A stretch of DNA of 64,000 nucleotides from Chloroflexota bacterium (lineage in GTDB: Bacteria; Chloroflexota; Anaerolineae; DTLA01), in assembly GCA_014360805.1 (NCBI GenBank), contig JACIWU010000004.1, positions 1 through 64,000 on the forward strand. The letters run 5' to 3'. The notes under the pieces were generated by a model that did no database searches, had not been told where the DNA came from, and worked only from the letters and a program-made list of their open reading frames with translations. Numbering within the stretch: the first letter of the stretch is position 1; every line of letters begins with the position of its first letter. Position numbers and translations under genes: made by a program. Below are positions 21,921-53,985 of this stretch, piece by piece.

Positions 21921-24317
21921 TTACCCCTTCAAGACCTCCATCGTGTACCGAATCTCCTCCGGCGTAACCGACGCGCGCAATTCCTCCATCTCGCGCATCG
22001 TCTTGGCCCACTTCTGCCCTTCTGCCGCGCTCACCCACTCCAACTGCAGCCGCTCCGGACGAATCCCCAGCTTCTCCAGTTTGTCCCACAGCCGATCCAC
22101 CCGCCGCACCGTATTGCGGTTGGCATTGATATAATGGCAGTCGGCGTAGTGGCAGCCCGACACCAGCACCACCGGCGCGCCCTTGCGGAACGCGTACAGC
22201 ACGAAGTCCTCGTCCACCCGCCCGCTGCACATGGTGCGGATGACGCGCGCGTTCGGCGGGTAAGTCATGCGGCCGGTGCCGGCGGTGTCGGCGCCCGCAT
22301 ACGAGCACCAGTTGCACGCAAACGTTACGATCTTGTTCTCCGGCCGCTCCTCCAGGATGGCGTCTATCATCGCGTAGATGGCCTGATCCGAGAAGTGGCG
22401 CATCTGAATCGCGTTGAACTTGCACTCGGCCGCGCACGTGCCGCACCCCGCGCAGGCCGCCGTAATGACGCACGCCGGCGTCTTCGCCTTCACGTCCACG
22501 GTGATCGCGCCGTAGGGACACACCCGGGCGCACACGCCGCAGAACTTGCACTTGTCGGGATCCACCACCGCCGTGATGGCCTCCACGGCAACGTTGCTCT
22601 TGTTCAGCAGCACCTGCGCCCGCGCCGCCGCCGCGCTCGCCTGGGTTACGCTGTCCTTGATGTCCTTGGGCGACTCCACGCACCCAGCCAGGTACACGCC
22701 CTTCGTCGGCGTATCCACCGGCTTCAACTTCGGGTGCGACTCCATCAGGAACCCGTCGCTCGTCCGCGACAGGGTCAGCAACTGCCGCACCAGTTCGGTG
22801 TCGCCGCTGGGCACCGCGCCGATGGACAGCACAATCAGGTCGTGCTCGTGCTCCTCAATGCGGTTCGCCGTCGTGTTCTCCACCACCACCCGCAGCGTTC
22901 CGGTCGCAGGGTCGCGGGCTACCTCGCCCGGCAGCCCGCGGATGTAGCGCACGCCCGTAGCCTTGCTCCGCTTGTACAAATCCTCAAACCCCTTGCCGAA
23001 AGCCCGAATGTCCATGTAGTACACCGTCAACTCCACGTCGGGATAATGATCCTTCAGCAGCAGCGTGTCCTTGACGGTGTTCATGCAGCAAATGTTGGAG
23101 CAGTACGGGTTGCCCTTCTTATCCGAGCGCGAACCCACGCACTGGATGAACGCGATGCGCCGGGGATGCTTGCGGTCGCTCGGCCGCACCAGGTGGCCCT
23201 CCGTCGGTCCCCCCGCCGAGATGAGCCGCTCAAACTCCATGCTCGTGATCACGTCTTCGTACCGCGTGTAGCCGTACTCGTCCAGTTCGGTCGGATCGTA
23301 AGGCTCCATGCCCGTCGCAACGATAATCGCGCCCACGTTGAGGGTGAGGATTTCGTCGCGCATGTCAAAGTCAATGCACTTCTTCTCGCACTTCTCAATG
23401 CACTTGCCGCAAGCGATGGGCACATCGCCCAGGCACTCCTGGATGTTGATGACATACGCCGAGGGCACCGCCTGGGGAAACGGGATGTAGATGGCGCGGC
23501 GCGTGGACAGCCCCGCCTCAAACTCGTTCGGCACGACCACAGGGCAGACTTTCGCGCAGTCGCCGCAGGCCGTGCACTCGTCCTCGCGCACGTACCGCGC
23601 CTTCTTCCGCACCTTCACCTTGAAGTTGCCAACGTACCCCGAAACGTCCTCAATCTCGCTGTAGGCCAGCAGTTTGATCTTGGGATGTCGACCGACATCC
23701 ATCATCTTCGGCCCGAGAATTCATATGGAACAGTCCATGGTGGGATAGGTCTTGTCCAACTGCGCCATGATCCCACCGATGGACGGCTTCTTCTCCACAA
23801 GATAGACCTGATGTCCCGCGTCGGCCAAATCCAGCGCCGCCTGAATCCCCGCCACGCCCCCGCCGATGACCAGGGCCGCGTCGGTTACGGGGATGCGCTC
23901 CTCGTCCTGGGGGTAGAGCCAGCGCGCCCGCGCCACGGCTGCCTTCACGATGTCCTTCGCCTTCTCGGTGGCCAGATCCGGCTCGCGGAAGTGCACCCAC
24001 GAGCAGTGCTCGCGGATGTTCGCCATCTCCAGCAGGTACGGGTTCAGGCCCACCGCCTGGACGCAGGCGCGGAACGTGGGCTCGTGCAGGCGGGGCGAGC
24101 ACGACGCCACCACCACGCGGTTCAGGTTGTGCTCCACCACCAGCCGCTTGATTTCCTGCTGGCCGGGATCGGAGCACGTGTACTTGTTGCGCGCCGCCAC
24201 CACCACATTGTGAAGCCCCGCGGCAAACGCCCGCACCTGCTCCGTGTCCACGCTCCTCGCGATGTTCGTGCCGCAGTCGCACACGAAGACCCCGATACGC
24301 AATTCCTCTCCTGGCAT
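21921..24317 (-). CDS. hdrA: HdrA-MvhD fusion, predicted selenoprotein (Sec at UGA 23723-23721)
   Basis: Flavin-based electron-bifurcating HdrA subunit fused to MvhD, 798 residues if the in-frame UGA is read as Sec199. The ATG at 24317 follows AAAGGAGG. Order: N-terminal Cys-containing domain ([16 protein letters not shown]); FAD Rossmann motif [17 protein letters not shown] (about 152-168); [15 protein letters not shown], then UGA, then [13 protein letters not shown]; ferredoxin motif [12 protein letters not shown] (Cys248-258); a second Cys-rich stretch [11 protein letters not shown]; rest of the thioredoxin-reductase-like fold; two C-terminal 4Fe-4S motifs ([23 protein letters not shown]); and MvhD ([24 protein letters not shown]). 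Cys-form relatives read DCSxC at the UGA position, a cluster ligand; methanococcal HdrA carries Sec there. There is no frameshift, and sequence on both sides is fully conserved. A hairpin with a GGTC loop follows the UGA. A nonsense mutation is the alternative. Confidence 0.85.
23683..23723 (-). promoter_or_regulatory. Sec UGA codon and SECIS-like hairpin in hdrA
   Basis: Minus strand: UGA at 23723-23721; then a perfect 7-bp stem GGATGTC (23700-23694) / GACATCC (23689-23683) with tetraloop GGTC (23693-23690). The loop begins 28 nt after the UGA, inside the spacing known for bacterial SECIS elements, and contains the GGU-type apex seen in E. coli fdhF. Codons in the hairpin (GGT, CGA, CAT) are unusual choices for this GC-rich genome, as if selected for RNA structure. 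Confidence 0.78.
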
Positions 24318-24379: not shown

Positions 24380-25366
24380 CTACAGCCATCTCACCAGCCC
24401 GCCCACGAGCAGGCACAACGTTGCGAAAAGTTCCAGCGCGAAATGCACCTTGAACGTGTTGAGCGTCAACTCGTTGATGCCATCGCCTTCGTACCCGCGC
24501 CGCGCCATCTTGCGGAAATTGTCCACCGCCGTCGGGAGCGCGAACCCCAGTGGAATCAGTGCCGCATATATCGGTATCCCCCACAGCCATGCCGTCGCCA
24601 TCGCCGCCAGCGAAATCACGACGTTCACGCGGTACAACTGCGACGCCCTTTCCGGCCCCAACACCACCAGCCACGTCCGCTTGCCCGATGCCGCGTCCGT
24701 CCGCCTGTCGGCAAACTCGTTGGCCAAGATGACGTTGAGGATGGAGAATGCCAGGGCCATGCTCAACGGCACCAGGCCAGGGGAGAATCGCCCCGCTTGC
24801 AGATAGTACCCCGCGATCACCGTCAGCGCGCCCGAGCAGGTGGCGATGACCAGTTCCCCCATGCTATGGTACACCAGCATCAGAGGCTTGCCCGTGTAGA
24901 ACCAGCCCGCCAGCGCGCCGAACACCCCCAGTGGGATCGTCCACGGGCCGGTGTGCAGCAGGAACCGAAGCGACAGGCCCAGCGGAAGCGCGGCCACCAG
25001 CAACCCCACCGCGAAGTACAGCGCCCGCTTGCGGTTGGTGATCTTGTTCTCCACCAGCAGGCGGATGCCACCCGAATAGGCGCTGAACTCCCAGTTGTTC
25101 AAATCCGTCTCGTAGTCAAAGTACGTGTTGCCGGCGTTCACCGCCCCCACGATCAGGAAGACCGTTACCGATGACACGATGAAGACCGGCCAGTTGAACT
25201 GACCCGTCTCAAAATAGGCCAGCACCGCGCCCAACGTGAACGGCAGCGAGGCCGAAAGCAAGATGAACCGCGCCACCATGATCTCGTAGAACGCCCTGGC
25301 GCTGTCGGGCTCAATCGCATCCATGCGTTGCTTGTAGTATCGGTGAACTTCCTCAAAGGTCGGCAT
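24380..25366 (-). CDS. UbiA-family prenyltransferase (MenA-like)
   Basis: A 328-residue polytopic prenyltransferase. The two Asp-rich Mg-diphosphate motifs are visible as [12 protein letters not shown] (about residues 78-89) and [15 protein letters not shown] (about 215-229), with eight to nine hydrophobic segments. The NxxxDxxxD form and [10 protein letters not shown] are like 1,4-dihydroxy-2-naphthoate octaprenyltransferase and its archaeal relatives, so menaquinone synthesis is the likeliest role. Other UbiA products (lipids, tocopherol-like) are possible. It is 27 bases downstream of the radical SAM gene and 62 upstream of hdrA-mvhD on the same strand. The N-terminal cytoplasmic helix begins [13 protein letters not shown]. 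Confidence 0.85.
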
Positions 25367-25392
25367 AGCCGCTTCTCCACGCGATAGTTATG

Positions 25393-26313
25393 TCAAGCAA
25401 CGATGCGGAACAGGCGAAAGGCGTCCAGAATGGCGGATAGCGAGCCGTTGTAGATCGCCTGCACTTCCGCCATCACCCCGTAGCCGCAGTGCTCGCAGAT
25501 GCGCGGATCCACCAACCTCGCCCCGCACCCTTCCACCACCATCCCGTTGGGGTGCGCCAGGTGAATCAGCCAGTGGGTCTTATTCCACCCGGGCTTGAGC
25601 ATCAGGCGGAAGGACGTTTCGGAATTGAGTATCGGGAAGCCCTGGCGCTTCAGCGCCACGATCCGCTCCACGGCAGCCGCCCGCTGCGGATAGTCCAGCG
25701 TGTGCGCCTCCACGCCCGGATAGGGAATCTGGAAGTTGACCGAGATGCCCTTGATCCTCGGCATCGCCTCCACGATGTTGCGCACGTTGGCTTCCAGGTC
25801 GTGTACGTTGATCTTGGACAGCGTGATGTTTGCGTACATGTTCGGGTTGCGGCTCTCGGCCACGTTCCGCACCATTTTCTCATAACTGCCCGCGCCCCTC
25901 ACCTGGTCGTGCACTTCCGGCGAGCCGTCCACGCTCACCCACACCAGGTCGCATGGGTTGTCAATCGGCAGGATGGCATTCGTTACGCAGGCCACCTTGT
26001 AGAACCGCTTCTTGGTATCCCGCACGAGATCGTTGAATCGGTAGTCGCCATCGTGCCACAGGGTCGGCTCGCCGCCCTGCAGGAACAGGATGCGCACGCC
26101 CCGATCCAGAAACGACTGCATCATCTGCTCCAACTGCGCCCGCGTCAGGTGTTCGCGCGGGACATCCGAACCCACATACGGGCAATGCACGCAGGCCAGG
26201 TTGCAGTACGATGTGATGTTGATTCCGCCTACCAGCGGGGCTCTTCTGCCCAGAACGCGCGTGCGGACGAAGTAACCCGCATAGTAGCCCAGTTGCCTGA
26301 TTTGAACGCTCAC
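25393..26313 (-). CDS. Radical SAM protein, function unknown
   Basis: A 306-residue radical S-adenosylmethionine enzyme. The 4Fe-4S/SAM motif is ITSYCNLACVHCPY (CxxxCxxC, about residues 37-44), followed by LFLQGGEPTLW (the GGE motif) and SVDGSPEVHDQVRGAG. A C-terminal Cys set, GCGARLVDPRICEHCGYG, could bind a second cluster. The overall pattern resembles HpnH-like and SPASM-related proteins. Its start is a GTG at 26313 after GGAGGA. The substrate is unknown; the adjacent UbiA gene suggests quinone or isoprenoid-lipid modification, but this is inference from neighbourhood only. Confidence 0.8.
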   Translation of the reverse strand: MSVQIRQLGYYAGYFVRTRVLGRRAPLVGGINITSYCNLACVHCPYVGSDVPREHLTRAQLEQMMQSFLDRGVRILFLQGGEPTLWHDGDYRFNDLVRDTKKRFYKVACVTNAILPIDNPCDLVWVSVDGSPEVHDQVRGAGSYEKMVRNVAESRNPNMYANITLSKINVHDLEANVRNIVEAMPRIKGISVNFQIPYPGVEAHTLDYPQRAAAVERIVALKRQGFPILNSETSFRLMLKPGWNKTHWLIHLAHPNGMVVEGCGARLVDPRICEHCGYGVMAEVQAIYNGSLSAILDAFRLFRIVA

Positions 26314-26381: not shown

Positions 26382-27521
26382 TTACTCTCCCACGAGCGCA
26401 TCGGCCAGCACGCCGGTCAAATCGCGGACGGCCACACGCGGCCCCGACGCCTCGCCCGCGCCGCTCATGGCGCACGTGAAGTGAATCTGGCACTTCGGGC
26501 AGGCCGTAACCATGACCTCGGCATCGGCGGCCAGGGCCTCGCCGATGCGCTCGTCCTGGATGGCCTTCGCCACCTGCCCGCACTGCGTCCACACGCTGGT
26601 GCCGCAGCACAGCGCCCGTTCTCGCTCGTGCTCCATCTCGCGCAACTCGGCAGCCGCCGCCAGGAGCGTGCGCGGCGCGTCGTATTCGCCCCCGTGCCGC
26701 CCCAGACGGCAGGGGTCATGAAACGCAACTCGCAGCGCGCTCCTGCGCAGCGCCAGCGACCCCGCGGCAAGGGACTGGGCGAGCACCTGGGAGATGTGCA
26801 GCACCTCCACCTTGAGGCCGCACGCCGATGGGTAGTCCATCTTCAAGGTACGGTAGCACTCGGCGCAGGACGTAACGATGCGCCGAATCCCCGCCTGCGC
26901 AAAGAGCGTTGCGTTGAGGTGAGCCAGAGCGCGGAACCCCTCCACGTCGCCGGCCCACAGCAAATCGTGCCCGCAGCATCGCTCGTCGGGCAGCACGCGA
27001 GGCGCGATGCCGACGCGGTTGAGCAAGTGAACGGTGTTCTGCGCAATCGCGACGCCCTCAAACCCCTGGCCTCGGAACATCGCGTCGTAGTGCGGCAAGC
27101 AACCCACGAAGTACAGCGTGTCGCCATCCTCGGACACCTGCAAATCGTCCGTGATCCAGCCCAGGCGATTCTGACGCAGGTTTGGATCCTGCATCAGGCG
27201 CATCCACGTGAAAATCGCGTCGCCGTGCGTGCAGGCCCCCGTACTCCCGTGCTCCCGGGCCAGCGCGCGCAGGTCGCGGGCGAACTCGGAGAACCGCACG
27301 TCGCCCGGGCACAGCGCGCTGCACCGCAGACATGTCAGGCACTTCCAGAGATCCTCGCCGCCCAGCCAGCTGGCCGGGTCGTCATTCACGGCGCGCTCCA
27401 CCGTGCGGCGCGGCGAAAAGCCGGCGTCCTTGCGGGCCACCGGGCACACGGCCGTACATTTGCCGCAACTCAGGCACAGGTAGGCGCGATTCTCTCGGAG
27501 TGCTGTCTCCAGTGCGTCCAT
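26382..27521 (-). CDS. HdrC-HdrB type fusion (HdrD-like) iron-sulfur protein
   Basis: A 379-residue protein with an HdrC-like N-terminus carrying two 4Fe-4S motifs (CLSCGKCTAVCP, CLTCLRCSALCP, residues about 16-80) and an HdrB-like C-terminus with two CCG domains (DERCCGHDLLW with SCAECYR, and ALCCGTSVWTQCG with ACPKCQ). In the family these CCG domains bind the noncubane 4Fe-4S clusters that reduce disulfides, as in HdrB/HdrD, or serve lactate- or glycolate-type oxidations. The gene begins 1 base after the short mvhD stop, so it is translationally coupled to the Hdr/Kor set. It is the likely terminal electron acceptor subunit. The actual disulfide or other substrate is unknown. Confidence 0.85.
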   Translation of the reverse strand: MDALETALRENRAYLCLSCGKCTAVCPVARKDAGFSPRRTVERAVNDDPASWLGGEDLWKCLTCLRCSALCPGDVRFSEFARDLRALAREHGSTGACTHGDAIFTWMRLMQDPNLRQNRLGWITDDLQVSEDGDTLYFVGCLPHYDAMFRGQGFEGVAIAQNTVHLLNRVGIAPRVLPDERCCGHDLLWAGDVEGFRALAHLNATLFAQAGIRRIVTSCAECYRTLKMDYPSACGLKVEVLHISQVLAQSLAAGSLALRRSALRVAFHDPCRLGRHGGEYDAPRTLLAAAAELREMEHERERALCCGTSVWTQCGQVAKAIQDERIGEALAADAEVMVTACPKCQIHFTCAMSGAGEASGPRVAVRDLTGVLADALVGE

Positions 27522-27522
27522 G

Positions 27523-27927
27523 CTACGCCCTCCGACCGTCCGTAAGCCCGCGCGCGAAGGATGCTATCCGTTCGGCGCAAGCGGTCGCGCTCCCCTCCGG
27601 AACCGAATCCACCGCCAGGCGCGTCGGCGCGATGCCGAGCAGGTGCAGCAGTTCCGACGCCTGCCGCGTGAGGGCCTGGGCATGTTCCCCGCCCACGCCG
27701 AAATGGCAGCGGTCGGGCGAGCAGCCCAAGGCCAGAACCCCTTCCGCGCCCGCCTGGAACGCCTTGAGGATCAGCCCCGGGTGCAATCGCGCCAGGCACG
27801 GAAGCCGCACGACGCGCACCTGGACTCCCACCCCAAGCCGCGCCCGGCCCAGTTCCTCCAGCCCGCGATACCCTTCCCAGTTGCACGCAAACACGACGAC
27901 TCGCGGGCAGGTGTCCATTTCCGCCAT
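27523..27927 (-). CDS. MvhD/FlpD-like hydrogenase iron-sulfur subunit, altered motif
   Basis: A 134-residue 2Fe-2S protein that in known complexes hands electrons to HdrA. Core: VVVFACNWEGYRGLEELGRA, VRLPCLARLHPGLILKAFQA, GVLALGCSPDRCHFGVGG. The usual start of the domain is [10 protein letters not shown]; here the second Cys is Glu (CNWEGY), while the remaining Cys residues (FAC, LPC, GC, DRC) are kept. The ATG at 27927 lies 1 base after the upstream TAG. The HdrA-MvhD fusion at 21921-24317 keeps all Cys, so this locus has one classical and one altered MvhD. Partner is probably the 1069-residue flavoprotein just upstream. Confidence 0.85.
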   Translation of the reverse strand: MAEMDTCPRVVVFACNWEGYRGLEELGRARLGVGVQVRVVRLPCLARLHPGLILKAFQAGAEGVLALGCSPDRCHFGVGGEHAQALTRQASELLHLLGIAPTRLAVDSVPEGSATACAERIASFARGLTDGRRA

Positions 27928-27928
27928 C

Positions 27929-30900
27929 CTACTTCCACCCCCGGCACAGCAGTTCCAGCGCCAGCGACACGTCCCTGTCCGAATAGGCGCCCTGCACCAT
28001 CGCCCCCGACGGACACCGCGCCACGCACAGCCCGCACCCCTGGCATCGGCCCGCGTCCACCACGGCGGCCCGTCGTCCGCCGGTCTCGCGCACCTCCACC
28101 GCCCCGAACGGGCACACCTCCGCGCACGTGCCACACGCCCGGCACAGCGCCTCGCGCACCGTTGCGCCGCTCCCATCCCGGCGGATCACGTTCCGCCCCA
28201 ACAGCGCGCTTATCTTCGCCGCCATTGCCTCCAGCGCCTGCTTGGATGCCGCGGGGTGCACTGTGTACAAGCCCGGAACGCGACGGTCGGGCTCCTGGCC
28301 CACCAGCACCACCGCGCCGCACGTCGCCGACATCTCGCCGCGCTCTCCGCGCAGCGTAACGCGGAAGTCGCCCATCGCGCCCTCCACGCGCTCAAGGCTG
28401 GCCGCAGGCAGCACCTGCACCCCGTTCGGCGCGTCCTCGTGCCGCTCGCCGCCCGCCGGCCTCGCCCACGACGTGGTGATGCCCACGCGCGACAGAAGCC
28501 TTGCCATCTCCGGCGCCGCCCTGCCCTGCCCCACCACCAGCGCCGCCGGCATGACGGGATACTCGGCAAACGGCATGTCGGCCCCGCCCGCTCTCGCTCG
28601 CGCCACTCCCAGGGCCATCAGGCTCTCCGCCACGACGTTCGCCTCGTCCCCCTCGTACAGCCACGCGCACTGCTCGCGGATGTTCACGAACTCCAGCCAC
28701 GTGCCCGCCTCGTTCAAGGGCAGCAACTGACCCTTGCACCGAAGCCGCTGCGTCGTGCACGAATAGCACACCTGATCCAGCGCGCAGCAGGAGCACGCCG
28801 CCACCACCACGCGGTTGAGGTCGTGGCGAGCCACCGCCTCGGCCAAGCGCGCCCCTGCATCTGGCGCGCAGGCTTGCTCCACCACCTCGGCCCACACCAC
28901 ATCTTGCAGTGCCGCCGCGCGCTGGACGATGACATCCAGCGGCAGGCGCTCGGAAATCTGCCCCTGGCAGGCGCACACCCACACGCCGATTCGCGGGCTT
29001 GCCGCTGCCGCTCGCCTGCGCCAAGCGGCCACCGTCTGGCGAGGCCGCCCGGCCGCCAGCGCCAGGAGTCGCGCCGCGGCCGCCGACGCCCCGATGCGGT
29101 CGTCCGCCGCGACGTGAAGCGTCCGCCGGCTCGGCGCAACGTCAAGCCCAGGCCGCTCCTCCGCCACGATGACCCCTGCCACCGTCAGCGTCCGCTCTTC
29201 CTCAACCCAGTCGTGGCGAATCGCACCAGGCTCGCATACGCGCACACACGCCAGACACTCGGAACAGGGGCCGCAGGCCAGGCATCGGCTCGCCTCGGCC
29301 ACGGCCTGTTCCTCGTCAAACCCCAGTTCCACCTCCTTGAACGTGGACAGACGCTCATCCATGGGGATTGTGGGCACAGGGACACGTGGGCGCACCTGGC
29401 GCTGGGCTTCCGCCAGTTCCCGCCGCGCCACGGGCACGTCCGCCCTCTCATCCGCCAGCGGCACGCCCCGAAGATATGCATCCATCGCCGCCGCAGCGCG
29501 CTTGGCCGAAGCAATCGCGTGAATCACCGACACCGGCTGCGTGATCGCGTCGCCCGCCGCGAAAATGCCCGGCCGGTTGGTCATGTACGTGCGACGGTCT
29601 ACGTGGAACGTGCCTTGAGGCGTGATCGCCAACCCGTGCCCGGCCCCCAGGAACGACAGGTCTGGCGACTGCCCGATGGCCGGCACAACCACGTCCACGT
29701 CCAGGCGGAACTCGCTGCCGGGAATCGGAACGGGACGGGGACGGCCGGAAGCATCCGGCTCGCCCAGCCGCATGCGGACGCAGTCCAGGCCCGCCACGCG
29801 CCCGTCGCGCTCCACAACCCGCACCGGCGCCACCAGGAACTGGAACGGAATCCCCTCTCGCTCGGCTTCTTCCACTTCCTCTGGAATCGCGGGCATCTCC
29901 TCGCGCGACCGACGGTAGAGCACCGTAACGTCCTTGACCCCCAGCCGTCGGAGCGACCGCGACACATCCATCGCCGTGTTCCCGCCGCCGATAACGGCCA
30001 CGCGCGTGTCGGCGCCGCGCACCAAAACCCGCGCCAACGCCTGCTTCCACTGCGGGTCGTCCACCTGTTGCGACAGGTTCAGCATCTTGAGCAGTCGCGC
30101 GCCGTGGACGACGCCCTCCAGGTGTTCGCCGGGGATGCCCAGTTCGGTGCTACGATGCGCGCCGACGCCGATAAAGATGGCCTCGTACCCCTGCGCGAAC
30201 AGCCCGTCCAGCCCGCCGTCGCCCAGCCTCACGGGCGAATTCAGGCGAATCTCAACTCCCAGCGCCTCAACAGCCTCTATCTCCAGGCGCAGGATATCCT
30301 TGGGCAGCCGGTAGGGTGGGATGCCCACGGCCAGCATGCCGCCCGCGACGGGCAGCGCCTCAAAGACGGTAACCTGGTACCCCATGAGCGCCAGTTCCGC
30401 CGCAACCGTCAGCCCGGCAGGCCCGGAGCCGATGACCGCCACCTTGCGCCCTTGGCCCACATCGGCCACCCGCCCCTTGCGGCCCAGGAGCGACGGGCGG
30501 CGCTCCGCGCGCAATTCGTAATCCGCGACGAACCGTTTGAGGGCGCGGGTGGACACCGCCCTGTCCACCTCGTTGCGCCGGCAATTGGCCTCGCATGGGT
30601 GATCGCACACGCGCCCGCAAATCGCCGGAAGGGGAATGGCCTCGCGGATGAGTTCCAGCGCCTCCTCAAAGCGCCGCTGGGCGATGAGCGCTACATAGCC
30701 CTGCACGTGGATGCCCCCCGGACACGTGTCGGAGCAAGGGGGCCGCCCGCTCCGCTCAATGGCGTACACATCGGGGACGGCGTTTGCGGGCCGCCAAATG
30801 GCGTGGCGCGTTATGTCCACCACCACCGGGCACACCTGCTCGCACTCGCCGCAGCCGGTGCAGCGTTCCACGTCCACGAAACGGCTACGCACGCGGACAA

Positions 30901-31138
30901 GGGCCTTGTACGCCGCGCCCTCCTTGCTCAGCCCCGCCACCGACGCCGGCGCGAGAAACCGAATGTTCGGGTGGCGCGAAGTCTGCAACAGCCACGCCCG
31001 AACGTCTAGGTCGCCCTCGGGCGCCGCAAACCATGGGTTTTCGCTCACCAGGTGGACTCGCGCCCCCGCCTCGGCCAGATCCCAGGCCGCCTGCGCTCCT
31101 GCCAGAGTCCCACCGATGACCAGGAACCCGTCCATCAC
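27929..31138 (-). CDS. HdrA-like / GltD (NfnB)-like fusion flavoprotein
   Basis: A 1069-residue multi-cluster flavoprotein. Order: an FAD-binding start (GFLVIGGTLAGAQAAWDL), ferredoxin motif CTGCGECEQVCP (about 93-104), a GltD/NfnB-type block (DTCPGGIHVQGY, ICGRVCDHPCEANCRR, VAVIGSGPAGLTVAAEL, NADPH motif VAVIGGGNTAMDVSRSL, FAAGDAITQP), a Cys-rich set (CLACGPCSECLACVRVCEP), an HdrA N-terminal-like block (GVWVCACQGQISERLPL to NIREQCAWLYEGD), and two C-terminal 4Fe-4S motifs (CRACGTCAEVCP, CQGCGLCVARCP). It overlaps korC by 4 bases. The NAD(P)H module joined to HdrA parts suggests electron transfer or bifurcation between NAD(P)H, ferredoxin from Kor and the HdrB-like protein. I know no standard name for this architecture. 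Confidence 0.8.
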   Translation of the reverse strand: MMDGFLVIGGTLAGAQAAWDLAEAGARVHLVSENPWFAAPEGDLDVRAWLLQTSRHPNIRFLAPASVAGLSKEGAAYKALVRVRSRFVDVERCTGCGECEQVCPVVVDITRHAIWRPANAVPDVYAIERSGRPPCSDTCPGGIHVQGYVALIAQRRFEEALELIREAIPLPAICGRVCDHPCEANCRRNEVDRAVSTRALKRFVADYELRAERRPSLLGRKGRVADVGQGRKVAVIGSGPAGLTVAAELALMGYQVTVFEALPVAGGMLAVGIPPYRLPKDILRLEIEAVEALGVEIRLNSPVRLGDGGLDGLFAQGYEAIFIGVGAHRSTELGIPGEHLEGVVHGARLLKMLNLSQQVDDPQWKQALARVLVRGADTRVAVIGGGNTAMDVSRSLRRLGVKDVTVLYRRSREEMPAIPEEVEEAEREGIPFQFLVAPVRVVERDGRVAGLDCVRMRLGEPDASGRPRPVPIPGSEFRLDVDVVVPAIGQSPDLSFLGAGHGLAITPQGTFHVDRRTYMTNRPGIFAAGDAITQPVSVIHAIASAKRAAAAMDAYLRGVPLADERADVPVARRELAEAQRQVRPRVPVPTIPMDERLSTFKEVELGFDEEQAVAEASRCLACGPCSECLACVRVCEPGAIRHDWVEEERTLTVAGVIVAEERPGLDVAPSRRTLHVAADDRIGASAAAARLLALAAGRPRQTVAAWRRRAAAASPRIGVWVCACQGQISERLPLDVIVQRAAALQDVVWAEVVEQACAPDAGARLAEAVARHDLNRVVVAACSCCALDQVCYSCTTQRLRCKGQLLPLNEAGTWLEFVNIREQCAWLYEGDEANVVAESLMALGVARARAGGADMPFAEYPVMPAALVVGQGRAAPEMARLLSRVGITTSWARPAGGERHEDAPNGVQVLPAASLERVEGAMGDFRVTLRGERGEMSATCGAVVLVGQEPDRRVPGLYTVHPAASKQALEAMAAKISALLGRNVIRRDGSGATVREALCRACGTCAEVCPFGAVEVRETGGRRAAVVDAGRCQGCGLCVARCPSGAMVQGAYSDRDVSLALELLCRGWK

Positions 31139-31704
31139 GCGGCGCTCCCCACGACTTGCCTGCCATAGTCCAGCCCGGCCTGAAAAGCCTTGAGATTGAG
31201 TTCCTCCGTGCCCTTGGGCACCGATTCGCTCACGGCCCGTCGCATGGACTCCTCGGACACCACGCCCGACACCGCCGTCAGAAAGCCCAGCATGACGATG
31301 TTGGCGACCAACTTGCGGCCCACCTCCGACTCGGCAATGCGCGTCGCCGGAATGGCGTACACCTTCACCCCCTCCGGCAGCGGGCCCAACACCACCAAAT
31401 CCTCATCCACCAGGAGCAAGTTCCCGTCGTGCAGCGAAGGCGCGTACTTGTTGTACGCCTCCTGAGACATGATGACGACGATGGATGGGTCAATGAGGTG
31501 CGGGTACTGCACGGGCGCATCGGACAGCACAACCTGCGCCGCGCACGCGCCTCCCCGCGACTCGGGGCCGTAACTCTGGGTGAAGGTCGCATACTTGCCA
31601 TCGTAGAGGGCGGCCGCCTTGCCCAGGATGTACCCGGCCAGGATAATGCCTTGCCCCCCGAATCCCGTAAGCCGTATCTCCGTCCGCGACATGGCGCCCT
31701 CCAT
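31135..31704 (-). CDS. korC: 2-Oxoacid:ferredoxin oxidoreductase, gamma subunit
   Basis: A 189-residue POR gamma-type subunit. Motifs: LTGFGGQGIILAGYILGKAA at the N-terminus, TQSYGPESRGGACAAQVVL and NIVMLGFLTAVSGV. With KorA, KorB and KorD it forms the 2-oxoglutarate:ferredoxin oxidoreductase, which converts 2-oxoglutarate and CoA to succinyl-CoA and CO2 with reduction of ferredoxin. The stop overlaps the start of the HdrA/GltD fusion gene (ATGA), so the two are translationally coupled, direct evidence that the oxidoreductase and the flavoprotein are made together. The 2-oxoglutarate specificity is inferred from the DABC order and the sucCD neighbours. Confidence 0.92.
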   Translation of the reverse strand: MEGAMSRTEIRLTGFGGQGIILAGYILGKAAALYDGKYATFTQSYGPESRGGACAAQVVLSDAPVQYPHLIDPSIVVIMSQEAYNKYAPSLHDGNLLLVDEDLVVLGPLPEGVKVYAIPATRIAESEVGRKLVANIVMLGFLTAVSGVVSEESMRRAVSESVPKGTEELNLKAFQAGLDYGRQVVGSAA

Positions 31705-31720
31705 CCGTTGGCACTACAGC

Positions 31721-32545
31721 CTACTGCGTATCGCCCCAGACGGGCTTTTCAATGTCCACAAATTTGCCCACGATGATGTCCCCGCTCAGTTCAATGTCCA
31801 CATCACGCGGGTCAGCGCCGTGGACAATGCGGCTGCGCTCGCGGTAGTAGCGCAGATGCTCCAGCCCTTCGCGCAGTTTGTTCATCCGGCCGTACAGCGT
31901 CGGGCACGGCGAGATAACCTCCACAAAACTGAACCCCCGCTTCACAAGCGCCTCGCCGATGGCCTTCTCCAAGCGCCGCACGTGGAGGACCGTCCACCGC
32001 GCCACGTACACGGCCCCGCTCCCCGCCGCCAGGTAGGGCAGGTTGAAGGGATGCTCCTGATTCCCGCGCGGCGACGTGGACGTGCGGGCATGCAAGGGGG
32101 TCGTCGGAGCCAGTTGCCCGCCGGTCATCCCGTAGTTGAAGTTGTTCACGCAGATGACCGTCATGTCCACATTGCGGCGCGCCGCGTGGATGAGGTGATT
32201 GCCGCCGATGCCCGCCAAATCCCCGTCCCCGCTGAACACCACCACCTTCAGTTCCGGGTTGCCCAATTTCAGCCCCGTGGCGAACGGGATGGCCCGCCCG
32301 TGTGTCGTGTGGAACGAATCCAGCCGCACATACCCGGCCACCCGCCCCGTGCACCCGATGCCCGACACCACCACCACCTTGTCCAAGTCCAGGCCCGACT
32401 TCACCAGGGCGCTGACGAAGCAAGTGAGGGCCGTTCCCAGCCCGCACCCCGGGCACCAGATGTGCGGCAGTCGGTCTTGCCGCAGCACCGCGTCCATAGG
32501 GTGCGATTCCGCCATCTCCAGTTCCTGTGGCACCGTCTCAATCAT
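31721..32545 (-). CDS. korB: 2-Oxoacid:ferredoxin oxidoreductase, beta subunit (TPP)
   Basis: A 274-residue TPP-binding subunit. CPGCGLGTALTC supplies a Cys near the proximal part, GIGCTGRVAGY follows, and the Mg-TPP motif is FSGDGDLAGIGGNHLIHAAR then VNNFNYGMTGGQ. The substrate-side segment ends in SPCPTLYGRMNKL, as in 2-oxoglutarate enzymes; pyruvate enzymes differ here. There is no ferredoxin domain, which is on the separate korD. Spacing to korA is 13 bases and to korC 16 bases. The start at 32545 is the first in-frame ATG in context, MIETVPQELEMAES. Confidence 0.93.
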   Translation of the reverse strand: MIETVPQELEMAESHPMDAVLRQDRLPHIWCPGCGLGTALTCFVSALVKSGLDLDKVVVVSGIGCTGRVAGYVRLDSFHTTHGRAIPFATGLKLGNPELKVVVFSGDGDLAGIGGNHLIHAARRNVDMTVICVNNFNYGMTGGQLAPTTPLHARTSTSPRGNQEHPFNLPYLAAGSGAVYVARWTVLHVRRLEKAIGEALVKRGFSFVEVISPCPTLYGRMNKLREGLEHLRYYRERSRIVHGADPRDVDIELSGDIIVGKFVDIEKPVWGDTQ

Positions 32546-32558
32546 CTACACCTCCCCG

Positions 32559-33725
32559 TTACCGACCCGCAGCCTCGCGTATGAGCGACAGGATGTCGTG
32601 GGGGTCGTGCAAGTCCCCGCCGGCATGCCCCGCCAGGTACACCGCTGCCTTCCCGGCCGCGCACCGCTCCACCTCATACACCATCTGCCCCAGGTTGATC
32701 TCCACCACCACAAACGCCCGCACCCGCCCCGCAAGGGCACGTATCTTCTCCTCCGGGAACGGCCACAGCGTGATGAGGCGCAGCATCCCCACCTTGATGC
32801 CTTCCTGGCGCGCCTGCTCTATGGGCCAGTGCGCCGTGCGGGCCGAGATGCCGTAGGTAACCACCACCACCTCGGCATCGTCCAGGGCTTGCGCCTCCAC
32901 GTCAATCATCCGATGGCGGTTCCGGCGTATCTTCTCCACCAGGCGCGTGATCATCCGCTGCTGCGTAACGGCGTCCACCATGGGGTAGCCGCGCTCGTCG
33001 TGGGTGAGGCCGGTGATGTGAATCCGATACCCCTCGCCGGCGTTCACCATGGCCGGCACCAGGTCTTCGCCGACCTCAAAGGGCTTGTACGCATCCGGCC
33101 CCACGGACGGCTTGCGGCGGGGGTAGATGGGAATCTGCTCCTCCGGCGGGATGACGACTTTCTCCGTCATGTGCCCCACCTCGGCGTCGGTCATCACCAG
33201 CACGGGCGTGCGGAACTCCTCCGCCAGGTTGAAGGCGCGGATGGTGAGGTCAAACAACTCCTGCGGCGAACTGGGGCACAGCGCGATGATCTCGTAGCAG
33301 CCGTGGGAACCCCATCGCGCCTGCATCACGTCCCCCTGGCCCACCAGCGTCGGCAGGCCCGTGGACGGCCCGCCGCGCTGCACGTTCACGAGCACACACG
33401 GCGTCTCCGTCATGATGCCCAGGCCCAGGTTCTCCATCATCAGACTGAAGCCCGGGCCAGAGGTCGCCGTCATGGCCCGCCGCCCTGCCCAGGATGCACC
33501 TAGCACCGCGTTCATGGAGGCCAGTTCGTCCTCCATCTGGATGTAGACGCCGCCCACCTCGGGTAGTCGGGCCGCCATCCGCTCCGCGATTTCCGTTGCC
33601 GGCGTGATGGGGTATCCCGCGAAGAAGCGGCAACCGGCGCAGATGGCCGCCTCGGCGCAGGCATCGTCGCCGCTCATAAAGTACTCGCCGCACAGGAGCC
33701 GAGGCTCTCGCTTGGACTCGCTCAT
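32559..33725 (-). CDS. korA: 2-Oxoacid:ferredoxin oxidoreductase, alpha subunit
   Basis: A 388-residue POR-N plus domain II subunit. Visible signatures: [69 protein letters not shown]. These form the CoA and TPP pyrimidine side of the active site. Its ATG overlaps the korD stop by 4 bases. KorA binds KorB to make the catalytic centre, and electrons leave through KorD to ferredoxin or, in this operon, possibly directly to the Hdr-like proteins. Confidence 0.94.
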
Positions 33726-33991
33726 GGGGCCACCTCCACCGCTTCACTCACGTGGATGGCGAATTCGGGGCACAGCATCTCGCAGAGGCCGCACGCGACG
33801 CACTGTTCGGGGTGCAGGGCATAGGGAGGATGGTAGCCCTTCTGGTTGAAGGTCTCGGAGATCGCCAGCACGTTGCGGGGGCAGAACTCCACGCAGAACC
33901 CGCACCCCTTGCACCGCTCCACCAGAACGGAGATTCTGCCCCGCGGCACCACAACCTGGCCGGCATCCAGAGGACGACGCCAAAGTTTCAC
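33722..33991 (-). CDS. korD: 2-Oxoacid:ferredoxin oxidoreductase, delta subunit (2[4Fe-4S])
   Basis: An 89-residue ferredoxin with motifs [16 protein letters not shown] and [16 protein letters not shown]. The start is a GTG at 33991, giving [12 protein letters not shown] after an AGGAGGGG site 4 bases away; open sequence farther upstream is leader. It is the first gene of the korDABC-hdr operon. It carries electrons out of the KorAB active site. Its stop overlaps korA. Confidence 0.92.
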
Positions 33992-34243: not shown

Positions 34244-35110
34244 TCACGCCATCTCGGCGACGAGGTCGGCCACCTCCACCGGATGGCGGGCAATGCGCAC
34301 GCCTGCCTCGCGCAGGGTGGCAATCTTCTCCGCCGCGGTGCCCGTGCCGCCCGAGATGATCGCGCCGGCGTGGCCCATGCGCTTGCCCGGAGGAGCCGTC
34401 TGCCCCGCGATGAACGCGGTAACCGGCTTGGTCATGTGCGTGGCGATGTATTCCGCGGCGCGCTCCTCGTCGGTGCCCCCGATCTCGCCGATGAGCACCA
34501 CCTGCTCGGTCAGCGGATCGTCCTGGAACAGTTTCAGCGCGTCAATGAACGTCGTCCCGATAATCGGATCGCCGCCGATTCCGATGCAGGTGGACTGCCC
34601 AATGCCCTTCTGCGTCAGGGCGTACACCACCTCGTAGGTCAGCGTCCCGCTGCGCGACACCACCCCGACTTTCCCCGGCATGTGGATATGCCCGGGCATG
34701 ATGCCGACTTTCGCCTCGCCGGGCGTAATCAGGCCGGGGCAATTGGGACCGATCAGCCGCGTGGACGTGTGCTGCAGGTACTCGCACACCTTCACCATGT
34801 CCAGCACAGGGATGCCCTCGGTGATGCACACGACGAGTTCAATCCCCGCGTCCGCCGCCTCCAGGATGGCATCCGGCGCGAAGCGGGCGGGCACGTAGAT
34901 GATGGACGTGTTGGCGCCCGTCGCGTTCACCGCTTCCTTCACGGTGTCAAAGACCGGCACGCCGGCCGCCCACTCGCCGCCCTTGCCCGGCGACGTCCCG
35001 CCGACGACCTTCGTGCCGTAGGCGATCATCTGCAGGGTGTGGAATTCCCCCTCACGCCCCGTAATCCCCTGAACCAACAGACGGGTGTCTTTGTTGACCA
35101 AAACGCTCAT
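34244..35110 (-). CDS. sucD: Succinyl-CoA ligase (ADP/GDP-forming), alpha subunit
   Basis: A 288-residue subunit that carries the phosphohistidine. CoA-binding Rossmann start [66 protein letters not shown]; active-site His in [15 protein letters not shown] near the C-terminus. It joins SucC in making ATP or GTP from succinyl-CoA, the step after KorABCD. Start ATG 35110 after GGGG. It is the last gene of sucC-HIT-sucD. Confidence 0.96.
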
Positions 35111-35569: not shown

Positions 35570-36709
35570 CTACGCCTCGCCGCGAGCCGCCGCCACCGCC
35601 AGTTGCGCCGCCTCCACCAGCGACGTCGTGGCGCGCATGTTCGCGCTGGCCAGCAGCCGCCGCCCTTCCTCCTCGTTGGTGCCCACCAGACGCACCACCA
35701 TCGGCACGTTCGGCTTGACCTCCTCCAGCGCCGCCAGGATGCCCTTCGCCACCTCGTCGCAGCGCGTGATGCCGCCGAAGATGTTGAACAGCACCGACTT
35801 CACGTTCGGATCCGACAGAATCATGCGCAGGGCCGCCGCCACCTTGTCGGCCTTCGCCCCCCCGCCGATGTCCAGGAAGTTCGCCGGCGCGCCGCCAAAC
35901 AGTTTGATGACATCCATGGACGCCATCGCCAGCCCCGCGCCGTTCACCATGCACCCCACGTTGCCGTCCAGTTTCACGTAACTCAGCCCATACTTGCGCG
36001 CCTCGGTCTCGGCAGGCGCTTCCTCGTCCAGGTCGCGCATCTCGGCCAGGTCGGGGTGGCGGAACAGCCCGTTGTCGTCCAGGACGATCTTCCCGTCCAC
36101 CGCCAGCAACTTGTGCTCATCGGTAACGACCAGCGGGTTGATCTCCGCCAGCGACGCGTCGGTGCTGACAAACGCCTGGTACAGCCCCTGGGCAATCGCG
36201 GCAAAAGACCCCACCAAGTCCTTGTCCAGGCCGATGCCGAAGGCGATCTCACGCGCCTGGAACGGCTGCAACCCCAGGAAAGGATTGATGCTCACCTTGT
36301 AAATCTTCTCGGGCGAGACGCGCGCCACCTCTTCTATCTCCACGCCGCCCTCCGCCGAAGCCATCATGACGGCGCGCTTGCTGGCCCGATCCACCACAAC
36401 CCCCAGGTAGATTTCCTTCTGAATTCGCGCCGCCTCGTCCACCAGGACCTTCTTCACCTTTAGGCCCTTGATGTCCATGCCGAGAATCTGCCCGGCCACC
36501 CGCTCGGCCTCGGCAGGATCGCGCGCCAGTTTGATGCCCCCTGCCTTGCCGCGGCCCCCGACCAGCACCTGCGACTTCACGACCACAGGCTTGCCCAGGC
36601 GCGCCGCAATAGCACCCGCCTCCACAGGCGTAGTCGCCACATCCCCTTCTGGAATAGGGATGCCATAACGCGCAAAGATGCGCTTGGATTGGTACTCATG
36701 CAGTTTCAC
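35570..36709 (-). CDS. sucC: Succinyl-CoA ligase (ADP/GDP-forming), beta subunit
   Basis: A 379-residue ATP-grasp subunit. [17 protein letters not shown] at the start, [19 protein letters not shown] in the ATP-grasp, [18 protein letters not shown] and [16 protein letters not shown] toward the C-terminus. The start is the GTG at 36709, 5 bases after GAGGAGG, giving MKLHEYQ; a GTG one codon earlier and open sequence upstream are less likely. A TATAGT at 36739-36734 may be the -10 box of the operon, but no good -35 box is seen. Confidence 0.95.
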
Positions 36710-36785
36710 CACAACCTCCTCGCAACAAAACAGACTATACCCACGGCCGTCGCATTCTCCCGCGCAGCCGAGATTCCACTGTGCC

Positions 36786-39700
36786 TCACGGCCCGAAAGG
36801 CGCAAATACCATAATGCGATGATTCCCAGAATCCGCCACGATCAGCCGCCCGCTCCCATCCACCGCCAAACCCACAGGCAGGCTGAACCGACTCTCATCC
36901 ACCCCATACTCCCCATACGCCGCCACAAACTCCCCGCCCACCGTCCACTCCAACACCCGATGCCCCTCCGGATCGCTCGCATACACGTGCCCTCGCCCAT
37001 CCACCGCCACATACGGCTTGTTCAACACCGACTCCCCTGCCCACGTCTTCACCCCCCACTCCCTCACATACCTCATCTCCCGATCCAACACCTGCACACG
37101 CCGATTCCACGTGTCCGCCACATACACGTTCCCCTCTCCGTCCACCGCCAACCCCACAGGCTCCCAGAACTGCCCCGGCCCCGCCCCAAACCCACCGTAC
37201 CCAGCAATGAACTGACCTTCCGCAGTGAACCGCTGAATCCGCTCGTTCCCCGTGTCCATCACCAACACGCTCCCATCCCACGCCATCGCCACCGCGCGCG
37301 GCCCGTAGAACGCACCAGGCAACGACGCCGCGTCGCCGCCCGTGTCCCCGCTCTCCCCCCACATCGTCACAAACTTCCCCGTGCCGTCAAACTTCTGCAC
37401 GCGATAGTTCCACGTGTCCGCCACGTACACGTTCCCCGCGCCGTCCACCGCAATCCCCCACGGCTCGTTGAACTCCCCTGGCCCGCTCCCGTACCGACCC
37501 CATCCCCGCAGATACCGCCCGTTCGCGTCAAACACCTGCACCCGATGGTTCCCCGTGTCCGCCACGTAGATGTTCCCCGCCGCGTCCACCGCCACCCCGC
37601 GCGGGTCCTGGAACTCCCCTGGCCCTTGCCCCTGCCGCCCAAACGTCAGCGCCGCCGGCACCAGCACCTTCTTCGCCTGATACGGATCCTCGGTAACGAC
37701 CACAGGCGGCTGCGGCGCTGCGGCTGCGGTCAGAGCGCCATACTGCCAGAGTTGCGCCGTGATGTCCTTGCGGATGTAGAGGATCATCTCCTCGCGGTAC
37801 GGCCAGTCCTTGAGCGCGTAGGGATACGTGCGCGACCACAGGATGCCCCAGATTTCAGCGCGCTTGGCTGGATCCCGCAGCATGGCCCACAGGCGCGCGG
37901 GCGTCAGCCCCTTGTAGTCCTCCACGGGCCACCACATGACCAGGCGCGGGAAACGGTCGTAATTCGCCAGAATCGGGCGCACCTTGGCGTCGTTCCAGCC
38001 GTGCACGATGACGATGGGCGAGTCCAGCGCCTCTCGGCTGGGGCTTTCGCCGGAGAACGAAACGGCGTTCGGGAAGTCCCGCAAGTACCAGTTGGCGAAG
38101 GGGAACCCCGTGCGAGAATCATATGCCACCTTGATGCGGTTGTCCCCGACGGTTCGGCGCGAGATGTCCAGAATCTCGTTCAGCGTTACCTTCGCGTCCT
38201 GGGTTCCATGCGCATAGACGATGAGTTCCTTGGCGTTGTCGTAGTTCACGAAACTCGCCACCCAACTGACCCGCACGGTCAGCAGAAGCAGGACGGCGAA
38301 GGCCGACGCCGCGCACGCCCGAAGCGCCATGGCCTTGCCCAGGCGCTGGCCCAGCCGCGCCAGCGCCCACGCCAGGCCCGCCGCCACGCCCAGCGTTGCA
38401 AGCCAAACCATCGTCTGATTCAGTTGCGCCTGCGAAAGCCCCGCAAAGGGCCGGATGGACAGCAGCCGGATCACCGAGTACCCGGCGGCGGGCAGCAGCG
38501 CGAAGAACGCAACGAACTCGCGCCGACGCTCCTGGTCTCCGTTCCCATCTCCCAGCCAATCCTGGAGCAGACGCCCCGTCAGCAGAATCATCGGCAGCAC
38601 CAGGTACACCGTGTGCTGCGGCATCTTCTCGCCCGTCCAACTGTGGATGGCCATGGCCGCAATCGCCCAGAAGATGACGAACGGCACAAAGGGCACCGCG
38701 TCGCGTTCCGGATGCGGCCGCCTCCGAAAGGCCGCGTAGTACACAATCGCCGCAACCGCGCCCAGGAGCGGCAGAAACTCGTACATGGGCGCCAGCACCA
38801 GCAGGAAGTAGTACCACGGCTGGCCGCCCCGCGCCTCACCGTGTTGCCCGAACCAGTAGGATAGTTGGCTAATGGGGCCGGTCAAGCCCCTGGGGTTGGT
38901 AAAGAACGTGGTGTACAACAACACCACCACCCCCAGGCCGATGCCGACCATCGCCCAGAAGTGCGCCCCGCGGATGGCCCCCAGGGCGCGGGCCACCGGC
39001 CGCTCCTTTCCGCCGGGGTACGCCCAACCGGCTAGCACCGCCGCCCCCAGCAGGCAGACCGCCACCACGAGCACCGGCAGGAGTCCGCTCCGCGCGACCC
39101 CCGCCGGCTGGGGCCGATTGGTGAGCCACACCAGCAGCGCGAGCCCCCCTGCGCTCACGGCCAGCCCCACGCCCCGCGCCGTCCGCGCCGCCTGCGCCGA
39201 CAGTCGCTCCCACACCAGCGCCACCACCACGAAGGCCACGACGATGAACCCCATGATGTACGCCACGGCCTTGGTGCACAGGTAGAACCCCACCGCCGCG
39301 CCGAACAGGTACAGATACTTCGGCTTCCGCTCGTCCACGTAGCGCAGGAAGCCGATGGCCATCAGCATGGTCCAGACCGCGCCGTAGATTTCGTGGAGGT
39401 TGTCCCGCGAGTAGAACAGCAGGAACGGCGACACAGTCAGCATCACCGCCGCCGCCAGCGCCCCGCCGCGCCCCAGGTACTTGCGCAAGAAGTACGGCAA
39501 GAGCGCCAGCGCCGTGCCGAAAAACGCCGACGCCAACCGCGATGTGTAGTCGCTCACGCCGAACAGCGTGTACATCAGCGTGTTCGCCAGGAACAGGAAC
39601 GGCCCGTGCGTGATCGGCCCGGTAACGGGGTCAAACTTGAAGATGGAGCCGACAGAATAGGGCTGCCACGAGAAATACAGGTGCTGGCACTCGTCAAAAC

Positions 39701-39866
39701 TCACGGCGCGCGCCCCCAGCGCCCACAGGCGCAGCGCCAGCGCCACAACCGCAATCCCGATGTACGCGGCCTTCTCCCGCGTCAGGTTCTGCAGGCTATG
39801 CAGGACCGGCGTCTCCCACCAGTCCTTGCCGTCCGAAACCGCTCCGACTTGAGCCATCCGTCCCAT
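36786..39866 (-). CDS. Agl23-type membrane protein (TIGR03663) with six-bladed NHL propeller
   Basis: About 1026 residues. N-terminal two thirds: a GT39/PMT-like polytopic domain with 11-13 hydrophobic segments. The first outer loop holds the acidic pair in [17 protein letters not shown] and the region before the second helix reads [18 protein letters not shown]. Then an outer domain (about 600-735) of the kind that follows such membranes. The C-terminus (about 740-1026) is six NHL repeats, each ending like [14 protein letters not shown], enough for a closed propeller. TIGR03663 members occur with TIGR03662 (YYY) proteins, as here. Function in surface glycan assembly is inferred. The start is uncertain: ATG 39866 or 39857, right after the upstream stop. 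Confidence 0.82.
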
Positions 39867-39871
39867 CACTC

Positions 39872-41593: not shown

Positions 41594-41617
41594 CCCGATT
41601 TGCGGCTTCCTTGTCGG

Positions 41618-43993: not shown

Positions 43994-44000
43994 ACGCCAC

Positions 44001-48803: not shown

Positions 48804-48896
48804 GTTCCAAATCCTCTGTACGGTTTCCCTCGCCGTGCGACGCGCAAACAAGTTGTCCTCCATGTTGCAGCCTGCAAGGTACATGCCCATCCGCCC

Positions 48897-50894: not shown

Positions 50895-50907
50895 CGCCTT
50901 GCTCCCA

Positions 50908-52852: not shown

Positions 52853-52865
52853 CTACAACCCCCGT

Positions 52866-53903: not shown

Positions 53904-53935
53904 AATGCCCTCCTCATATCCCTAGTCGGTGTGCC

Positions 53936-53964
53936 ATTATAATCCCTTGCCAAATCTTGGACAA
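53936..53964 (-). promoter_or_regulatory. Promoter of the epimerase-glycosyltransferase operon
   Basis: Minus strand TTGTCC (53964-53959), 17-base spacer, TATAAT (53941-53936). It drives the epimerase and probably the genes down to the 36.8-kb end of the glycan cluster. Confidence 0.7.
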
Positions 53965-53985
53965 AACAGGCCGCCAGCCCCCACG

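Follow-up and report, generated by a model that had tools for sequence, protein, structure and literature searches.

An Hdr-GltD fusion protein with two truncated HdrA flavin domains, encoded between korDABG and FlpD-HdrCB genes in a Chloroflexota bacterium

The window examined was a stretch of 64,000 nucleotides from a Chloroflexota bacterium (GenBank assembly GCA_014360805.1, contig JACIWU010000004.1, positions 1 to 64,000), and the gene in question is that at 27929-31138, whose 1069-residue product is here called P0001. On its sequence, P0001 is one of the Hdr-GltD fusions ('HdrL', 'type III HdrA'), with a module order closest to that of ~1500-residue double-HdrA-plus-GltD proteins. The novel feature is that both HdrA flavin modules have shed the same domain, with the residues K409 and E356, plus the Cys197 loop. 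The initial annotation had presented the protein as a composite; this kind of fusion had already been described (PMC12054007, PMC2702500), but the gutted flavin modules are new. The gene lies in a cluster with genes for a 2-oxoacid:ferredoxin oxidoreductase (Kor), FlpD and an HdrC-HdrB fusion, and P0001 is probably a subunit reactive with nicotinamide adenine dinucleotide phosphate (NADP(H)) that serves as a wire or dock in a Kor-Hdr complex.

Loss of the same domain from both HdrA flavin modules

Alignment with relatives of ~1420-1575 residues revealed that each HdrA flavin domain of P0001 was short of ~220-260 residues. The lost piece was the same in both modules, namely the NADPH-like domain bearing the CxxxCC cluster and the equivalents of K409 and E356. 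These two residues were missing from both HdrA modules of P0001 and of the aligned Kor-linked homologues, while the long (~1500-residue) forms retained the region. The first flavin domain also lacked the DCxxC loop (Cys197), and its nucleotide motif read GGTLAG, compared with GGGxxG in the complete forms; across homologues, the middle glycine of this GxGxxG motif was replaced by T, N, S, D or similar. The second HdrA-like nucleotide motif, at residue 870, had the form GxGxxA.

The combination of K409 and E356 is the proposed mark of a bifurcating HdrA, and every type III (GltD-containing) sequence in an archaeal set possesses both residues (PMC12054007). P0001 lacks this mark in both modules. 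As both flavin modules are without the K409/E356 domain, and the Cys197 loop is missing too, the HdrA parts of P0001 should not bifurcate electrons. Working HdrA flavin sites had been expected in the chain, an expectation that finds no support, given the loss of the K409/E356-bearing domain from both flavin domains; the 'FAD start' (flavin adenine dinucleotide) of the initial annotation does correspond to an HdrA flavin segment, but to a degenerate half-domain with the GGTLAG motif.

Ratios of nonsynonymous to synonymous substitution rates (dN/dS) were calculated for the window against relatives of the same genus. Values were 0.11-0.12 for the GltD module, 0.04-0.06 for the middle clusters (residues 601-645), ~0.15 for the N-terminal domain and 0.18 for the C-terminal ferredoxin. 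The GltD and iron-sulfur parts spanned 0.04-0.26, which indicates strong constraint. For the flavin remnants the range was 0.19-0.58 (0.30 for residues 1-85, and 0.46-0.58 for residues 646-700). The flavin remnants are thus retained, but under looser constraint than the GltD and iron-sulfur parts.

Integrity and module layout of the gene

P0001 was encoded by a single unbroken frame on the minus strand, as are all genes of the window described below, with a GTG start at 31138, overlapping the 3' end of korG, and a stop at 27929. The coordinates had been given correctly before, but the strand had been overlooked; a plus-strand reading of 27929-31138 yielded a low-complexity antisense frame and was rejected. 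The host genome (3.24 Mb, 96% complete), whose closest named relatives are Chloroflexota/Anaerolineae bins, is one of three in the genus, and orthologues were present in both others, one full-length with 84% identity (L041/L021) and one partial with 85% identity at a contig edge (L022). Full-length homologues with 48-50% identity were found in other families of the class. Since full-length homologues occur both in the genus and in other families, a fusion created by sequencing or assembly error was excluded; the intact frame and the domain searches likewise bore out the composite chain. A search of a plasmid collection returned partial matches only, of the GltD type. The Kor-type domain was detected in ~16 of 219 sampled genomes of the class, and a phylum sample (251 genomes) added two genomes beyond these.

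The chain opens with the N-terminal half of the first HdrA (thioredoxin-reductase-like) flavin domain (residues 1-85; 30884-31138), assigned from alignment with the ~1500-residue forms and from model secondary structure. It is followed by the first [4Fe-4S] motif of the HdrA inserted ferredoxin (residues 86-130; 30749-30883; C93, C96, C99, C103), identified by Pfam/NCBIfam, motifs and conservation, and by a complete GltD/NfnL-type module (residues 131-600; 29339-30748), identified by Pfam/NCBIfam, matches in the PDB and Foldseek. Residues 601-645 (29204-29338) hold an RCLACG motif, which supplies the GltD ligand pair C619 and C622, and the second inserted-ferredoxin [4Fe-4S] motif (C625, C628, C631, C635), motifs that were invariant in 16/16 homologues. 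The alignment placed the C-terminal remnant of the first flavin domain at residues 646-700 (29039-29203), which marks the first deletion. The HdrA N-terminal domain, with its novel set of cysteines (residues 713-860; 28559-29002), was supported by HdrA models, clade membership and conservation, and the second flavin-domain remnant, with the second deletion (residues 861-985; 28184-28558), by alignment and Foldseek. The chain closes with a ferredoxin pair (residues 986-1069; 27932-28183; C999-C1009 and C1032-C1042), seen by Pfam, motifs and conservation.

The domain search with Pfam/NCBIfam recovered Pyr_redox_2 (8e-40, residues 232-545), Fer4_20 (3e-22, 132-210), Fer4_7 (1e-15, 999-1046), Fer4 (88-105) and HdrA models (713-890), with a PRK12771-like GltD core at 130-642. 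Four CxxCxxCxxxC motifs (starting at C93, C625, C999 and C1032) and seven cysteines of the GltD ligand type (C135, C139, C178, C182, C186, C619 and C622, invariant in 16/16 homologues) imply that P0001 would carry about six [4Fe-4S] clusters, in agreement with the at least five iron-sulfur motifs first counted. In total, 34 cysteines were kept in at least 13 of 16 homologues. The two or more nucleotide sites proposed earlier were canonical in the GltD module (residues 237 and 384), but not in the HdrA-like segments. The predicted structure of the whole chain, modelled with no cofactors, had a predicted local distance difference test score (pLDDT) of 73 and a predicted template modelling score (pTM) of 0.50, and was low around several clusters. 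The prediction for residues 700-1069 was better (pLDDT 81.9, pTM 0.74), and by Foldseek this part aligned end to end with Methanothermococcus HdrA (5odh_A), across the gap.

A database search for the same order led to the ~1500-residue double-HdrA-GltD proteins, which share it. Relatives of ~1420-1575 residues were found in Chloroflexota, Firmicutes (Carboxydocella, Symbiobacterium), Thermodesulfobacteriota and Lokiarchaeota. In most of these, GltD separates the two clusters of the ferredoxin insertion within a complete HdrA flavin domain; after this come an HdrA N-terminal domain and another complete HdrA flavin domain, and a ferredoxin pair ends the chain. The long forms of Carboxydocella (L025), Symbiobacterium (L029), Lokiarchaeota (L030) and the genus of the window itself (L040) matched P0001 in module order, with 33-50% identity over the matched parts; unlike P0001, both of their HdrA flavin domains are complete, and korDABG was not adjacent in the loci examined.

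The GltD-type module

The GltD module of P0001 contained both nucleotide-binding motifs of the GltD/NfnL type, an FAD site (GSGPAG, residue 237) and an NAD(P)H site (GGGNTA, residue 384), together with the seven cysteines for two [4Fe-4S] clusters. Sequence matches of the core in the PDB were to NfnA, NfnL, Stn and GltD proteins, with E-values up to 1e-123. The best relatives were NfnABC (9bov_A at 1e-123, and 9n5u_A), Stn (8oh5_C) and NfnL (5jca), which are the NADPH-side subunits of bifurcating transhydrogenases; Foldseek aligned the core with 9bov_A at 9e-51. The form GxGxxA in the second nucleotide motif is associated with NADP rather than NAD (PMC12054007), and GGGNTA fits this form, so specificity for NADP is predicted. 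NfnABC and StnABC (9bov, 9n5u, 8oh5) share the GltD-like NADPH module, with 43-46% identity to NfnABC over the aligned core, but have no HdrA parts and have other partner subunits.

The GltD modules of the Kor-linked set did not form a single clade (approximately unbiased test, p 2e-52; 1.5e-5 without L036), in a tree in which long branches were present. A single origin of the whole architecture was rejected: the HdrA N-terminal domain forms one clade but the GltD module does not, and thus one tree cannot describe the whole protein. In a separate observation, the GltD modules of three homologues of family f44 (L089-L091) grouped with a long form of 1575 residues (L028), and not with the other Kor-linked GltDs.

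The HdrA N-terminal domain

The presence of an HdrA N-terminal iron-sulfur domain was indicated by the HdrA models at 713-890. Here P0001 reads ACSCCALDQVCYSCTTQRLRCK, with the pattern ACSCCxLDQxCYSCTxQRxRCK, and differs from canonical HdrA. The domain has ten further conserved cysteines, nine of which were found in 15/15 homologues with the domain, and one (C801) in 13. The equivalents of C11, C13, C46, C71 and C103 of 5odc were retained, and five cysteines were new. Proteins with this cysteine motif formed one clade (support 100/98) even when the motif columns were removed. In HdrA, the Cys197 loop ligates the N-terminal cluster of the partner protomer, a cross-dimer rule (PMC9012536). P0001 has the N-terminal domain and no Cys197 loop, while the HdrA encoded nearby, described below, has selenocysteine (Sec) at position 197.

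The gene cluster and its selenocysteine HdrA

The sucCD-korDABG genes and the neighbouring Sec-HdrA had been overlooked previously. Upstream of P0001 lie korG (POR gamma; 31135-31704; NCBIfam PRK08537, 242.5 bits, cut-off 235), korB (thiamine pyrophosphate subunit; 31721-32545; Pfam/NCBIfam), korA (32559-33725; NCBIfam PRK08659, 577 bits, cut-off 411) and korD (ferredoxin subunit; 33722-33982; best model OGOR_delta, 76 bits, cut-off 125). All four subunits, alpha, beta, gamma and delta, are therefore encoded, with KorB and KorD scoring below cut-off and best to 2-oxoglutarate models. Before them are sucD (succinyl-CoA ligase alpha; 34244-35110) and sucC (beta; longest frame 35570-36805, with the true start probably near 36715), both over the NCBIfam cut-off. 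Downstream of P0001 are genes for a FlpD/MvhD-like [2Fe-2S] subunit (27523-27927; Pfam FlpD, 2.7e-29) and an HdrC-HdrB fusion (HdrCB) with two [4Fe-4S] motifs and two complete CCG motifs (26382-27521; Pfam CCG, 8e-23, and Fer4_8).

Among the loci compared, the gene was directly preceded by korDABG, or by as much of it as the contig contained, in all 15 with upstream sequence, usually with sucCD before korDABG. FlpD was downstream in nearly all loci, and the HdrC-HdrB fusion in most of those extending far enough. A stop-split HdrA with its own FlpD came next in 12 loci, the window included. In family f44 the P0001 homologue is fused at its C-terminus to FlpD in one chain; these homologues (L089, L090 and L091) were also without the second Rossmann remnant. 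In a member of the Zixibacteria (L036, 3264-5243), a 660-residue form with only GltD and ferredoxin clusters was found in a sucD-korDABG-FlpD-HdrCB-SecHdrA cluster, suggesting that the GltD and ferredoxin wire is the functional minimum. No description of a Kor-Hdr-GltD cluster was found in the literature searched, most subscription journals being outside its coverage.

The stop-split gene of the window (P0002, 21921-24317) encodes an HdrA2 with a C-terminal FlpD (NCBIfam HdrA2, 1208 bits, cut-off 1100), and is broken by ordinary gene calls at an in-frame TGA (23721-23723). This TGA, read as Sec, aligned with Cys197 of 5odc_A, and the same alignment gave E482 and K535 as the retained equivalents of E356 and K409. 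A hairpin resembling a selenocysteine insertion sequence (GGATGTC-GGTC-GACATCC, 23683-23700; with the TGA, 23683-23723) followed. Twelve loci carried the Sec motif, namely the window, ten more linked loci and L034, with the same hairpin 20 bases later in each; the hairpin was conserved across Chloroflexota and Zixibacteria, and a compensatory change of one pair was seen in L044 and L093. The genome encodes selB, so that in-frame TGA, hairpin and Sec machinery are all present; no tRNA-Sec was found in the 5.4 kb around selB that were scanned. Sec-HdrA has long been known (PMC1794560, PMC2702500). From the residues retained, bifurcation is more plausibly located in this neighbouring Sec-HdrA than in P0001.

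Neither a 2-oxoglutarate dehydrogenase E1 nor a citrate synthase was found in the genome by Pfam, the Re-type citrate synthase lying outside this search, and an acetyl-CoA synthase domain was encoded; Kor is therefore the likely route to or from 2-oxoglutarate. The genome also encodes a COX1-family protein and several further 2-oxoacid oxidoreductases, and for succinate dehydrogenase there was one weak PF02910 match in the genome, interrupted by a stop.

Proposed role and alternatives

In the role that we favour for P0001, that of an NADP(H)-reactive wire or docking subunit, complex formation, electron path, bifurcation and direction are all deduced from sequence and gene order. Hydride exchange with NADP(H) would take place on the FAD of the GltD module, and electrons would pass through the protein's own clusters to the C-terminal ferredoxin pair and on to FlpD. 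FlpD would deliver them to the flavin of the separate Sec-HdrA2 (21921-24317), the putative site of bifurcation or confurcation, with its low-potential branch leading to KorABDG (2-oxoglutarate <-> succinyl-CoA + CO2) and its high-potential branch reaching the CCG clusters of HdrCB. The HdrA segments of P0001 would be relics in which a Rossmann half persists together with the N-terminal domain and the inserted ferredoxin, most likely as a pseudo-HdrA protomer docking on a true HdrA. As no citrate synthase or 2-oxoglutarate dehydrogenase was found, the direction may be NADPH-driven synthesis of 2-oxoglutarate from succinate, or the reverse in glutamate breakdown. The internal wire from NADPH to HdrB-like clusters suggested at the outset survives in part: an NAD(P)H module and many clusters share one chain, and FlpD is the next gene and is fused to it in one family, but the HdrB-like clusters are outside the chain, two genes downstream in the HdrC-HdrB fusion.

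A more specific version, held only tentatively, is that an emptied pseudo-HdrA replaces one protomer beside Sec-HdrA, making the otherwise symmetric HdrA dimer asymmetric and yielding a bifurcating complex that is driven by NADPH and connected to 2-oxoglutarate:ferredoxin oxidoreductase. In that case, low-potential electrons for reductive carboxylation would arise inside the complex, without free ferredoxin.

Several points weigh against the proposed role. The half-domains of P0001 may still bind FAD. The extra cysteines of the N-terminal domain may complete its own cluster, with no need for a partner's Sec197, and Sec-HdrA, which also possesses an N-terminal domain, is able to pair with a second copy of itself. 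The complex is suggested by synteny and one fusion, with FlpD, and 2-oxoglutarate is the presumed Kor substrate from sucCD linkage and best models. In one locus (L042) the HdrA differs and the downstream part of the contig lacks HdrCB, and in another (L047) the contig shows no HdrA. Since the GltD modules are not one clade, the simplest reading is that GltD was swapped inside the gene, or that the architecture was assembled more than once.

That P0001 is part of a simple 2-oxoglutarate:NADP+ oxidoreductase, with Kor electrons passing straight to NADP+ and no bifurcation, the Hdr genes serving otherwise, is considered unlikely. The transfer from 2-oxoglutarate to NADP+ is energetically downhill, the reading frame of P0001 begins before that of korG has ended, and there is precedent for NADH-dependent 2-oxoacid oxidoreductases that possess an additional NADH subunit, with phenylglyoxylate dehydrogenase models among the Kor matches. 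However, FlpD is next in nearly every locus and fused in one family, HdrCB is present in most, and a Sec-HdrA with intact bifurcation residues lies downstream in 12 loci. It is quite improbable that P0001 is instead a self-contained bifurcating type III HdrA (HdrL), in which NAD(P)H would react at GltD and the HdrA flavin used would be that of the same chain: the E356/K409 domain is gone from both modules in the aligned Kor-linked homologues and the first GxGxxG is broken, even though the HdrA segments are recognisable by domain models and the overall order is that of Hdr-GltD fusions with conserved K409/E356 (PMC12054007).

A fused glutamate synthase small subunit acting in glutamate synthesis is hardly to be expected, as no gltB is in the cluster, the partners are Hdr and FlpD, and the best solved relatives are transhydrogenase NADPH subunits; the best family match is nevertheless to a GltD-like core, clustered with 2-oxoglutarate-related genes. 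Two lost flavin domains and faster-evolving remnants could also be signs of a decaying gene or a chimera without coherent function, an explanation made scarcely credible by open full-length frames across families, conserved cysteines, dN/dS well below 1 and conserved synteny.

Like the nine archaeal type III sequences (PMC12054007), for which NAD(P)H entry was proposed, P0001 has GltD inside the HdrA inserted ferredoxin (C93-103 before, C625-635 after). In those proteins the thioredoxin-reductase domain is retained, K409/E356 included, and the motif is GxGxxG, of the NAD type, whereas P0001 retains neither residue, has GxGxxA, two gutted flavin modules and a following second HdrA unit, and has Kor as genomic partner. 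HdrL of Desulfobacterium autotrophicum, in the available part of PMC2702500, is similarly a predicted Hdr/glutamate synthase fusion followed by MvhD/FlpD, some with Sec; these are large proteins, one linked to Dsr, and that part reports neither gutted flavin domains nor a Kor cluster. The MvhD/FlpD to HdrA to HdrBC logic of methanogen HdrABC-MvhADG (5odc), whose HdrA fold recurs in residues 700-1069 of P0001, appears to be shared; a GltD module for NADP(H) would stand in for the hydrogenase, and Kor for the ferredoxin outlet. If the proposed role is correct, electron bifurcation would extend to 2-oxoglutarate metabolism, with NADP(H) as mid-potential carrier. P0001 would then be an example of a bifurcating subunit emptied of its special flavin domain yet kept as wire or dock, which makes it possible to test both the K409/E356 rule and the rule of cluster ligation across the dimer by Cys197 (here Sec).

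Other features of the window

Genes for a radical SAM protein and a UbiA prenyltransferase (24380-26313, minus strand) lie between HdrCB and Sec-HdrA, among the mapped loci only in this genus. A second 2-oxoacid oxidoreductase-like protein with POR_N and thiamine pyrophosphate domains, of indolepyruvate-type size, is encoded at 5656-7437 (minus). A row of several large membrane proteins, some with PMT_2 glycosyltransferase matches, occupies 36786-55800 (minus); the one at 36786-39974 (minus) ends in what by eye are NHL-like repeats.

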